64,000 nt of DNA from Pseudomonadota bacterium (GTDB lineage Bacteria > Pseudomonadota > Alphaproteobacteria > Rhizobiales > Xanthobacteraceae). The translations under genes and the position numbers were made by a program. The notes below the pieces were generated by a model. The model was not told where the DNA came from. It did not search any database and saw only the letters and a program-made list of their open reading frames with translations. The DNA lies in the NCBI GenBank assembly GCA_018242205.1, contig JAFECJ010000002.1:62001-126000 (forward strand), in the 5' to 3' direction. Below are positions 10,407 to 52,236 of the stretch, in pieces (the first letter of the stretch is position 1; the number at the start of each line of letters is the position of its first letter).

Positions 10407-11675
10407 ATGACCGAGCCCACCGGCACCCGGCCTTTCTCGCAGTTCGAATGGATGCTGTCGCTGCGTTATTTACGCGCGCGCCGCAAGGAAGGCTTCATTT
10501 CCGTCATCGCCGGGTTCTCCTTCCTCGGCATCATGCTCGGCGTCGCCACCCTGATCATCGTCATGGCGGTGATGAACGGCTTCCGCGCCGAACTGCTCGA
10601 CAAGATCCTCGGCCTCAACGGCCATCTCCTGATCCAGCCCTTGGAAAAGCCCCTGACCGACTGGGACGAGGTCGCCCAGCGCATTTCCAAGGTGAAGGGG
10701 GTGCGGCTCGCGGCGCCGATCGTCGAAGGCCAGGCCTTGGCCTCGTCGCCGTTCAATGCCGGCGGCGTCCTGGTCCGCGGCATCCGGTTGAAGGATCTCG
10801 AAGGCCTGCCGTCGGTCGTCAACAACATCAAGCAAGGCACGCTCGGCGGCTTTGACGACGGGCAGGGCGTTGCCATCGGCCGCCGCCTCGCCGATCAGCT
10901 CTCGCTGCGCGCCGGCGACAACATCACTTTGGTGTCGCCAAAAGGCGCGGTGACGCCGATGGGCACGACGCCGCGCATCAAGGTCTACAAGGTCGCGGCG
11001 GTGTTCGAGATCGGCATGTCCGAATATGACAGCGCCATGGTGTTCATGCCGCTCAAGGAGGCGCAGGCCTATTTCAACCGTGCCGGCGACGTCACCGCCA
11101 TCGAGGTCTATACCGACAACCCCGACAAGGTTCTGCAATACCGAAAAGAGGTGCAGGACGCGGCCAAGCGCCCGATCTTCGTCATCACCTGGCAGCAGCG
11201 CAACGCCACCTTCTTCAACGCGCTGCAGGTCGAGCGCAACGTCATGTTCCTGATTCTGACGCTGATCGTGCTGGTGGCGGCGCTCAACATCGTCTCCGGC
11301 CTGATCATGCTGGTGAAGGACAAGGGCCAGGACATCGCCATTCTGCGTACCATGGGCGCCAGCCAGGGCGCGGTGATGCGGGTGTTCCTGATCACCGGGG
11401 CCTCGATTGGCGTGGTCGGCACCTTGGTCGGATTCCTGCTCGGCATCGTCGTCTGCAAGAACATCGAGAGCATCCGCGAATTCTTGTCCTGGCTGACCAG
11501 CACCGAACTGTTCGACCCGACGCTCTACTTCCTGTCGAAGCTGCCGGCGCAGATGGATGTCGGCGAGACCGCCGCCGTGGTGCTGATGGCGCTGGTGCTG
11601 TCGCTTCTGGCGACGCTCTATCCGTCCTGGCGCGCCGCGCGCCTCGATCCGGTGGAGGCGCTGCGTTATGAGTGA
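10407..11675 (+). CDS. lolC: Lipoprotein-releasing ABC transporter permease LolC/LolE
   Basis: A 422-residue FtsX-type permease. There is a cytoplasmic N-terminus with [18 protein letters not shown], a first membrane helix (residues about 30-55, [23 protein letters not shown]), a large periplasmic domain (about 60-265), and three C-terminal helices within residues about 275-410. The closing [20 protein letters not shown] is the family signature. With LolD it extracts lipoproteins from the inner membrane and passes them to LolA. Alphaproteobacteria use a single LolC/E-type permease, probably as a homodimer; no second permease is present. Its end overlaps lolD by 8 nt. Confidence 0.95.
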
Positions 11676-12405
11676 CGTGATGGTCGAGAGCGAGGAAGTG
11701 ACGATCGAGGCCGAGGCCCAACAGGACATTCCGATCCTGTACCTGCACCAGGTCGAGCGACATTACAGCCAGGGCGAAACCGTACTCGACATCCTGCGCG
11801 GCGCGGATCTTGCGCTATGGCCGGGCCAGTCGGTGGCGCTGGTGGCGCCGTCGGGCGCCGGCAAATCGACGCTGCTGCACATCGCCGGCCTGCTCGAGCA
11901 CCCCGATCATGGCGAGGTCTATATCGGCGGGCAGGGCACGGCAGGGCTTCCCGACGCCGACCGCACCCGCATCCGCCGCACCGAGATCGGCTTCGTCTAT
12001 CAGTCGCATCACCTGCTGCCGGAATTCACGGCGCTGGAAAACGTCATGCTGCCGCAGCTGATCCGCGGCCTCGGCCGCGCGGAGGCCAAGAAGCGGGCGC
12101 TCGAACTGCTCGACTACCTGGGCCTGAAAGCCCGCGTCAATCATCGGCCGGCAGAACTGTCCGGCGGCGAACAGCAGCGCGTCGCTATCGCCCGCGCCGT
12201 CGCCAATGCGCCGCGCATCCTGCTCGCCGACGAGCCGACCGGCAATCTCGACGTTCACACCGCCGAGCACGTCTTCGCCGCCTTTACGCAGCTCGTCCAT
12301 GCGTCCGGGCTCGCGACCATCATCGCCACGCACAACATGGAAATCGCCGCGCGCATGGACCGCCGCGTGACGATCCGCGATGGCTTGGTGGTGGAGCTGG
12401 ACTGA
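11668..12405 (+). CDS. lolD: Lipoprotein-releasing system ATP-binding protein LolD
   Basis: A 245-residue ABC ATPase. Walker A SGAGKST (about residues 61-67), Q-loop [17 protein letters not shown], signature [14 protein letters not shown], and Walker [13 protein letters not shown] are all intact, and ATHN gives the switch histidine. The N-terminus has an acidic extension of about 22 residues before the core ([11 protein letters not shown]). It powers the LolC permease encoded directly upstream with an 8-nt overlap, so the two are translationally coupled. It ends 15 nt from the convergent oxygenase gene. Confidence 0.96.
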
Positions 12406-12420: not shown

Positions 12421-13062
12421 TCACACTGCCGCCGCTGCGCGGTGAATCCAGCAATTGATGGCGAAGCGCGAATCCTCGAACGCGCCGCTCGGGCAGGTCA
12501 CCGCCGTGACCTCGTGCGGATACCAGGACGGGAAATACACCAGCGTGTCGTTGTCCGGCGGCACGTCAGCGCTGCTGCCCGGTGCGCCGGAGGCTGCCAC
12601 CGAATAGAGCCGCAGCACGCCGCCGCTGAACGCCCGGGGCTCACGGTGGAAGTAATACACCGCGCTGATGGCACGGCTGCCGGACCGGCCGCGGCCGATC
12701 CTGGTGTCGATGTGGCGCGCGAAGAAGGCGCCGTCATTGTGGGCGACCAATTCGAGTTCGAATTTCGACGGCACGAAGGGTGGCGCGCCGAGCGCCGCCG
12801 TCATCGCCGGAAGGAGGCCGTTGAAGCGCTCGCGCAACTCGTCGCCAAGCCCAGGTAGATCGTAGAGGACTTCCGATCGCCGGCGCTCCGGCTTGACCCG
12901 GCCGCTGGTGCCGTAGGTCATCTTCGACGGCGCGAAGGCGCTGCGCTGTGCCTGCGCATAGGCGAGCAGGCGGGCGACCGCGGCAGTCCCCAGCCAATCG
13001 CGGACCACGCCATGAGGCGGCGGCCGGTCCAATGCCGCCAGCGGCGACGGGCGTGCTTCCAT
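12421..13062 (-). CDS. 2-oxoglutarate/Fe(II)-dependent oxygenase (prolyl 4-hydroxylase-like)
   Basis: A 213-residue protein with the double-stranded beta-helix metal triad: His117-x-Asp119 in FFARHIDT, distal His183 in WYPHEV, and Arg199 in DSRFAINCW to hold 2-oxoglutarate. The block between (AVYYFHREPRAFSGGVLRLY) is typical of P4Hc-like 2OG-FeII_Oxy_3 proteins. Substrate is unknown; candidates are a peptidyl residue or a small molecule. It is convergent with lolD and divergent from the microprotein at 13263, whose LexA operators lie about 150-185 bp upstream of this start. Whether the oxygenase is also SOS-controlled is open. Confidence 0.85.
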   Translation of the reverse strand: MEARPSPLAALDRPPPHGVVRDWLGTAAVARLLAYAQAQRSAFAPSKMTYGTSGRVKPERRRSEVLYDLPGLGDELRERFNGLLPAMTAALGAPPFVPSKFELELVAHNDGAFFARHIDTRIGRGRSGSRAISAVYYFHREPRAFSGGVLRLYSVAASGAPGSSADVPPDNDTLVYFPSWYPHEVTAVTCPSGAFEDSRFAINCWIHRAAAAV

Positions 13063-13205
13063 TGGCGAATTCTACCTGCGGCTGTGGGCGGCGAGAAGGA
13101 GCAGGAACAGGAGACCGCAACGCCAGGCGAGTCCCGCGACCCGCAGGCCGAAGACGGGGATTTAACAGCGTGGCGGCAATGGCTTACGGGAGGCAGAGAT
13201 TCAGT

Positions 13206-13235
13206 TTGACAAAAGAACAGATCGCGAACTATGTT
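13206..13235 (+). promoter_or_regulatory. Sigma70-type promoter of the SOS microprotein
   Basis: A consensus -35 TTGACA (13206-13211), then 17 nt, then CTATGT (13229-13234); shifting by one gives TATGTT with 18 nt. Transcription would start near 13241 and give a leader of about 20 nt. Both LexA boxes overlap this promoter and start region, as expected for tight repression. Confidence 0.75.
13215..13229. promoter_or_regulatory. LexA box 1 (GAAC-N7-GAAC)
   Basis: GAAC at 13215-13218 and GAAC at 13226-13229 with exactly seven bases between, i.e. the alphaproteobacterial LexA operator GTTC-N7-GTTC read on the minus strand. It lies in the -35/-10 spacer of the microprotein promoter. Confidence 0.85.
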
Positions 13236-13247
13236 CTCTCTACGTTC
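13233..13247. promoter_or_regulatory. LexA box 2 (GTTC-N7-GTTC)
   Basis: GTTC at 13233-13236 and GTTC at 13244-13247 with exactly seven bases between. It overlaps the -10 end and the predicted transcription start and stands 3 nt from box 1 in the opposite orientation. Two perfect boxes at one promoter suggest very tight SOS repression. Confidence 0.85.
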
Positions 13248-13262
13248 TTGTTGGAGGGTGTC

Positions 13263-13361
13263 ATGATCAAGATCGTCGTTCAGGAAGCCGCCACGCTCGC
13301 CGCCCTGTCGCTGTTCGTCGGCATGGTCGCCATCTGGTCGCAAGTGATTGGAAGCCTGTGA
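13263..13361 (+). CDS. SOS-controlled 32-residue membrane microprotein (SidA-like in size and control)
   Basis: The ORF runs ATG 13263 to TGA 13361, 32 codons. A very good ribosome site (GGAGGG, 13253-13258) lies 4 nt upstream. The product has a short amphipathic start (MIKIVVQEAA) and one hydrophobic helix, residues about 11-30, with one Trp (Trp25) and a near-neutral tail; it is predicted to be a single-pass inner-membrane peptide. Its promoter is overlapped by two LexA boxes. In Caulobacter, SidA is a 29-residue, LexA-controlled inner-membrane peptide that blocks division through FtsW/FtsN; this one matches in size, topology and control, but I cannot claim homology. It is easily missed because it is far below usual gene-length limits. 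Confidence 0.8.
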   Translation: MIKIVVQEAATLAALSLFVGMVAIWSQVIGSL

Positions 13362-13368
13362 TTGGCAA

Positions 13369-13384
13369 CCTCCGATGACGGAGG
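13369..13384 (+). terminator. Small hairpin after the microprotein
   Basis: CCTCCG (13369-13374), 4-nt loop, CGGAGG (13379-13384), 8 nt after the stop codon. There is no T-run, so it may be an mRNA 3-prime stem rather than a true intrinsic terminator. Confidence 0.4.
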
Positions 13385-13800: not shown

Positions 13801-17268
<3,468 letters not shown>

Positions 17269-51414: not shown

Positions 51415-52125
51415 TTAATACCGCCGGAACATCGCAACCATCTTGCCCTGAATGCGCACGCGGTTCGGCGGCAGGATGCGCACCTCGTAGGCGGCGTTGG
51501 CCGGCTCGAGCGCGATCGAGGCGCCGCGGCGGCGGAAACGTTTCAGTGTGGCTTCCTCGTCGTCGATCAGCGCCACGACGATGTCGCCGGTGTCGGCGGC
51601 TTCCGAGCGGCGGATGAGCGCGATATCGCCGTCAAGAATGCCGGCGTCGATCATTGAATCGCCGCGCACTTCGAGGGCGAAATGCTCGCCCGCGGTCAGT
51701 AGCTCGGGCGGCATGTTGATGACGTGGCTCTTGGTCTGGATCGCCTCGATCGGCGTACCGGCGGCGATGCGGCCCATGACCGGCACCGAGATCGAACGCG
51801 CCGAGTCATCGTCACCCGCGGGCACCGGCCGGACTTTGCCGAGGTTACCTTCGATGACGCTCGGGTTGAATCCCCTGGCGCGGCCATTACCGCCCATGCC
51901 ATGGGCGACGGAATCCGGGAGTTTGATGACCTCGATGGCCCGGGCGCGGTTGGCGAGGCGGCGAATGAAGCCGCGTTCCTCCAGAGCTGTGATCAGGCGG
52001 TGGATGCCAGATTTCGAGCGCAGATCCAGCGCGTCCTTCATTTCGTCGAAGGAGGGCGGCACGCCGGCCTCGGTCAGCCTCTCGTGGATGAAACGCAGGA
52101 GTTCGAATTGTTTGCGGGTCAGCAT
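51415..52125 (-). CDS. lexA: SOS repressor LexA
   Basis: A 236-residue repressor/autoprotease. Start at ATG 52125 ([17 protein letters not shown]), the standard N-terminus. The winged-helix DNA-binding domain is residues about 1-67; the alphaproteobacterial linker is long (70-112). The self-cleavage bond is Ala122-Gly123 in GRIAAGTP, and the Ser157/Lys195 dyad is in RGDSMIDAG and EEATLKRF. RecA filaments trigger cleavage. Its promoter carries a perfect LexA box, so it is self-repressed. Confidence 0.97.
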
Positions 52126-52207: not shown

Positions 52208-52236
52208 ACACTATCTGTTCGATATGTGTTCCGCAA
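52208..52236 (-). promoter_or_regulatory. lexA promoter
   Basis: On the minus strand TTGCGG (52236-52231), 17-nt spacer, TAGTGT (52213-52208). The LexA box fills the spacer, as in the microprotein promoter at 13206. The leader to the ATG is about 75 nt. Confidence 0.65.
52217..52231. promoter_or_regulatory. LexA box of lexA (GTTC-N7-GTTC)
   Basis: GTTC at 52217-52220 and GTTC at 52228-52231 with exactly seven bases between, about 90 bp upstream of lexA. It confirms the operator form used in this genome. Confidence 0.88.

Follow-up and report, generated by a model that had tools for sequence, protein, structure and literature searches.

Which gene do the two LexA boxes upstream of dnaE serve at this locus, and is the 32-codon frame behind them a gene with a function in division? 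The window, that is, the whole stretch of 64,000 nucleotides analysed here, was earlier interpreted from its letters alone. This sequence-only reading proposed an SOS-induced membrane microprotein, and saw in it a Hyphomicrobiales counterpart of the Caulobacter peptide SidA, by descent or convergence. The genes concerned are arranged as follows.

11668–12405, + strand: lolD, the upstream partner, located by tblastn against the loci of relatives and named by its sequence and its place after lolC
12421–13062, − strand: ORF resembling, by eye, a 2-oxoglutarate/Fe(II) dioxygenase of the PiuC kind, between lolD and the microgene
13263–13361, + strand: SidA-like microprotein gene, ATG at 13263 and TGA at 13359–13361, 32 codons, MIKIVVQEAATLAALSLFVGMVAIWSQVIGSL
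13801–17268, + strand: dnaE, DNA polymerase III alpha subunit, the downstream partner, an ORF of 1155 aa

The microgene lies between lolD and dnaE on the same strand as both, with one gene of the opposite strand intervening. The ORF at 12421–13062 looks like a recent insertion because, among the loci of relatives, only L002 shares it. The window also contains the gene for a predicted repressor.

51421–52125, − strand: lexA, predicted repressor, 180.3 bits to TIGR00498, over the cut-off

An exact LexA box at 52217–52231, about 90 nt before lexA, is its own, and this single box is consistent with autoregulation. The signals around the microgene are these.

13206–13211, + strand: −35 element TTGACA, by direct reading and promoter scan; TTGAC is kept here in most genus members
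13215–13229, + strand: LexA box 1, GAACAGATCGCGAAC, an exact match to GAAC-N7-GAAC between the −35 and −10 elements
13229–13234, + strand: −10 element CTATGT after a 17-nt spacer, between both boxes in the core GAACTATGTTC
13233–13247, + strand: LexA box 2, GTTCTCTCTACGTTC, an exact match to GTTC-N7-GTTC covering the −10 element and the predicted transcription start
13253–13258, + strand: ribosome-binding site GGAGGG, by direct reading
13369–13384, + strand: 6-bp hairpin CCTCCG-ATGA-CGGAGG after the stop, weak and without a T run

The TTGACA-17-CTATGT promoter described by the sequence-only reading is present, and the two perfect alphaproteobacterial LexA boxes said to lie over it are both exact, at 13215 and 13233. 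The GGAGGG site and the 32-codon frame with one hydrophobic helix were confirmed as well, the helix being a prediction. The promoter scan favours TATGTT (13230–13235), with an 18-nt spacer, as the −10 element, and it finds one promoter-like site where shuffles have a mean of 0.0. Exact LexA boxes number 110 in the 4.6 Mb of the genome, or about 0.003 expected by chance per 130 nt; upstream of the microgene there are two, 18 nt apart. In relatives, box 1 is conserved at about −48 and box 2 at about −30, with the same 18-nt distance from box 1. A GGAG-type ribosome-binding site is seen in nearly all genus members shown. With the −10 element enclosed by both boxes, LexA bound there would be expected to keep RNA polymerase out. 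As for the small hairpin reported after the stop, it exists, but its stretch is no more stably folded than shuffled sequence (z −0.12). Its interpretation as a terminator was rejected on that score, together with the missing T run and the silence of the terminator scan at this site.

The frame itself is conserved as a protein. Of 150 related genomes searched with the peptide, 78 contained matches at E ≤ 1; these include 35 of the 42 other genomes of the same genus. The best 72 frames represent 62 distinct proteins, 57 of which are exactly 32 residues long. All 72 frames share L12, F18 and W25 and have an acidic residue, E or D, at position 8; F18 and W25 are invariant also in the order-wide alignment. 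Mismatches across genus pairs are distributed over codon positions 1, 2 and 3 as 0.261, 0.060 and 0.463, and pS is 0.62 against a pN of 0.24 (uncorrected, over all pairs). Frameshifts or stops in close relatives had been named in advance as what would speak against a gene. None was read in the 72 closest frames, and some relatives are without the gene and the boxes. Paired boxes, short frames and amino-acid conservation, the signs to be looked for in relatives, were all found. The peptide is predicted to form one helix over residues 2–31 (pLDDT 94), a fold uninformative on the target. Its hydropathy peaks at 2.1 within 32 residues, and the membrane helix is likewise predicted. Neither Pfam nor the plasmids searched contained anything similar. 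Judged by conservation, the 32-codon ORF is a genuine gene.

How far the family extends was seen by searching 397 genomes of the order with profile A1, made from the relatives of the window peptide; it gave many weak matches. Forty of these were retrieved, each a frame of about 27–38 residues, and most have an exact GAAC-N7-GAAC 45–100 nt upstream, a feature invisible to the profile. Altogether 138 loci from at least 17 families of Hyphomicrobiales were found by protein similarity alone, counted once per genome. Their frames are 25–38 residues long (median 32). An exact LexA box lies within 130 nt upstream in 128 of them, and in 73 it is part of a pair with 18-nt spacing. lolD is located upstream in 86 of the loci, within the extent of DNA read, and dnaE directly downstream on the same strand in 133. 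A class-wide profile search yielded mostly chance matches, and only those adjoining dnaE were retained.

Two deviations were seen within the family. Six members of the f44 branch (L119–L124; 27–31 residues, e.g. MIIRDVLALGSLITFMSMIAVWMQVLV) stand beside dnaE and have no exact box at the usual place; two of the six have an exact LexA box at −153. Regulation in this branch may differ from that in the rest of the family. The genome of L073 (G064:C13) has a normal copy and, at a place not adjoining dnaE, another frame of divergent sequence, MLKTVLHEAVRLASVALLVGVVIAWAAVKTGGV, that lacks a box and is a possible paralogue.

The constancy of dnaE downstream, in nearly all of the 138 loci, is also what could be expected if the boxes regulated dnaE and the short frame were merely a leader or an upstream ORF. 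Read-through is possible in the window, since no plus-strand terminator is seen between the frame and dnaE. The distance from the frame stop to dnaE, however, ranges from 11 to 1090 nt, and what is conserved is the residues, including the order-wide F18 and W25, and not just translation. The question was approached from the other side with 173 dnaE loci gathered by DnaE alone and a profile trained on peptides found regardless of boxes. Frame and box occur together in 27 loci, 126 have neither, 18 have a box without a scoring frame, and 2 have a frame without a box (Fisher p ~1.9e-17, a value that overstates independence, the loci being related). About two thirds of the 18 box-only loci contain a correctly placed short hydrophobic frame that is too divergent to score. 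In eight Xanthobacteraceae-type genomes (L377–L384), where at least 1.2 kb upstream of dnaE was read, frame and boxes are both lost; since these genomes do without the gene, the microgene is dispensable. Box and frame are likewise both missing upstream of dnaE in the Rhodobacteraceae loci read and in most Rhodospirillales ones (L304–L363). Without the frame, then, there are usually no boxes either, although dnaE is present; this holds for the 126 loci and for the eight genomes. Regulation of dnaE as the role of the boxes is very improbable by this evidence. Going by co-occurrence, it is the microgene and not dnaE that the LexA box serves.

The same place beside dnaE is occupied by sidA in Caulobacteraceae. 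NF033228, the NCBIfam equivalog model of SidA, has a curated cut-off of 35 bits, which is exceeded in Caulobacter vibrioides (control genomes) and in one sampled genome of the class, L160. The L160 SidA, MVQFTRETLALASVASFVWMMVEVARMFA, scores 44.3 bits; its gene follows the end of lolD, precedes dnaE, and has the LexA box GAACAAAGACAGAAC at −40. The order lolD-sidA-dnaE is found also in the Caulobacteraceae locus L161, and sidA is directly before dnaE in L275 and L284–L293, of the same family. A scan of named loci with DnaE of L160 as the query listed 80 loci, C. vibrioides not among them; sidA directly precedes dnaE in two Caulobacter, three Brevundimonas, a Phenylobacterium and others. Scores to NF033228 are 59.7 bits for L284 and 58 bits for L289, 58–60 bits in the Caulobacter and Phenylobacterium peptides tested, and 26–27 bits in two Brevundimonas-type peptides. 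In C. crescentus, dnaE is CC1926 (PMC1839093).

The resemblance of the peptides themselves is faint enough that convergence has to be considered: an SOS membrane peptide of an origin independent from SidA, possibly acting alike. The window peptide has no match to NF033228 at E up to 10, and none of the members tested outside Caulobacteraceae reaches the cut-off. Its identity to the L160 SidA is 24% (alignment A3). With a profile of three SidAs alone it scores 0.7 bits, no better than shuffles. Used genome-wide on two Caulobacteraceae genomes, the profile of the Hyphomicrobiales peptides misses sidA, so that homology rests on the locus and the local score. That local score was compared with shuffles that leave the hydrophobic/polar pattern of the residues unchanged. 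A profile built from 30 Hyphomicrobiales peptides gives 16.8 bits to the L160 SidA and 13.4 bits to the L275 SidA, each equalled by 0 of 2000 shuffles, and 9.1 bits to the L161 SidA, equalled by 5 of 2000. Conversely, when SidA and peptides of other orders are combined in one profile, the window peptide scores 18.9 bits with it, which none of 2000 shuffles reaches. Other orders have intermediates at this locus, for example L214 (MFRETFSDLLKDILALSAVGGVLWAVTVWSAILGGAL) and Parvibaculum L296 (...GDWLKDIAALGSIGAFLWVAATWVQIAHQ). L214 and L257, and L296, L298 and L300 of Parvibaculum, combine a SidA-like LALS-type helix start and first Trp with the second Trp of Hyphomicrobiales. The helix start [KRQ]-[DE]-x-x-A-L is common to both sides, and strand, place, neighbours and regulator are all those of SidA. 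These facts make an independent origin unlikely. Descent from a common SidA ancestor is the better reading, favoured by the shared lolD-sidA-dnaE locus and by profile scores beyond those of shuffles, so that the choice between descent and convergence left by the sequence-only reading tilts towards descent. The window peptide does not qualify as SidA under NF033228; its locus, regulation, size and local sequence appear to place it in the same orthologous group. We suggest the name SidA-like for it and regard its family as a known kind extended across the class.

The window gene is probably the local, unannotated sidA, an orthologue in the broad sense, and its product, by analogy, a LexA-repressed division inhibitor holding FtsW, FtsI and FtsN. 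The functional half of this claim draws its support from the relationship to SidA. LexA on the two promoter-overlapping boxes would keep transcription shut. We infer induction by DNA damage: removal of LexA would leave a good promoter with a short leader, and the 32-residue peptide would be made. It would then be inserted into the inner membrane as one helix, whose N terminus is predicted to lie inside; K3 and E8 would be at this cytoplasmic end, W25 close to the periplasmic surface. On the model of SidA of Caulobacter, the peptide might keep the FtsW/FtsI/FtsN complex inactive, and septum synthesis would in consequence wait until repair is done.

A SidA relative could also have changed its target, for example to another envelope machine. 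Hyphomicrobiales include polar growers with different growth machinery, and the residue pattern of the window peptide is unlike that of SidA. There is nevertheless no positive evidence for another target, and such a change is considered improbable.

Another possibility is an SOS toxin like TisB or DinQ of E. coli, whose helix would depolarise the membrane and slow growth, with division arrest as a side effect. TisB is an SOS toxin of the same size class, with LexA control and a single helix. DinQ is a LexA-controlled single-helix SOS peptide toxin (PMC3567139). Both, at about 30 residues, are like the window peptide in size, regulator and helix, but they are controlled by antisense RNA. No such RNA is seen at the window microgene, and its predicted leader is only about 22 nt. 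Rfam has no match here, and the fold of leader and ORF together is less stable than that of shuffles (z +2.0), although an undescribed antisense RNA might escape both. The constant position of the microgene next to dnaE and its kinship with SidA point to a core gene maintained by vertical inheritance and not to a toxin module. We give a toxin of this kind a low probability.

If the division-inhibitor reading is extended to the family, SidA is rather likely to be an ancestral SOS division checkpoint across much of Alphaproteobacteria, kept at a fixed lolD-sidA-dnaE locus, unrecognised outside Caulobacteraceae, and with boxes otherwise assigned to dnaE. The span of this reading covers Caulobacteraceae, Parvibaculum and its kin, at least 17 families of Hyphomicrobiales and scattered other families. 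Because the same gene stands beside dnaE in many alphaproteobacteria, this checkpoint, known from one family, is probably of ancient origin and wide distribution. In the literature searched, which was not exhaustive, there was no report of SidA-type peptides outside Caulobacteraceae and no account of how rhizobia or other Hyphomicrobiales halt division upon DNA damage. The family offers, for each Hyphomicrobiales genome that has it, a concrete gene, a regulator and a likely target for such a stop. The many natural variants mark the acidic residue 8, F18 and W25 as residues that might be important for gripping the division machinery.

Among known systems, YneA, SosA, DivS and ChiZ are alike in being SOS-induced division inhibitors of other bacteria; they belong to other lineages and are larger proteins. 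YneA acts on FtsW (PMC13396833). DidA of Caulobacter is closer, being a small inhibitor of division, induced by damage, that sits in the inner membrane and acts on FtsW/I/N (PMC4211646); unlike the window peptide, it has 71 residues, is encoded by a different gene, and is SOS-independent, under DriD. The closest is SidA of Caulobacter, a 29-aa inner-membrane peptide that binds FtsW and FtsN, whose activity is suppressed by ftsW and ftsI mutations and which causes a lexA deletion strain to filament (PMC4211646, PMC12700426). SidA has a Trp at 19, in contrast to the invariant W25 of the window-peptide family, and the Hyphomicrobiales family usually has two oppositely oriented boxes 18 nt apart. 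Common to both are the size of about 30 residues, the one helix with its shared start, the LexA box at the promoter, the gene position between lolD and dnaE, and a local profile similarity beyond that of shuffles.
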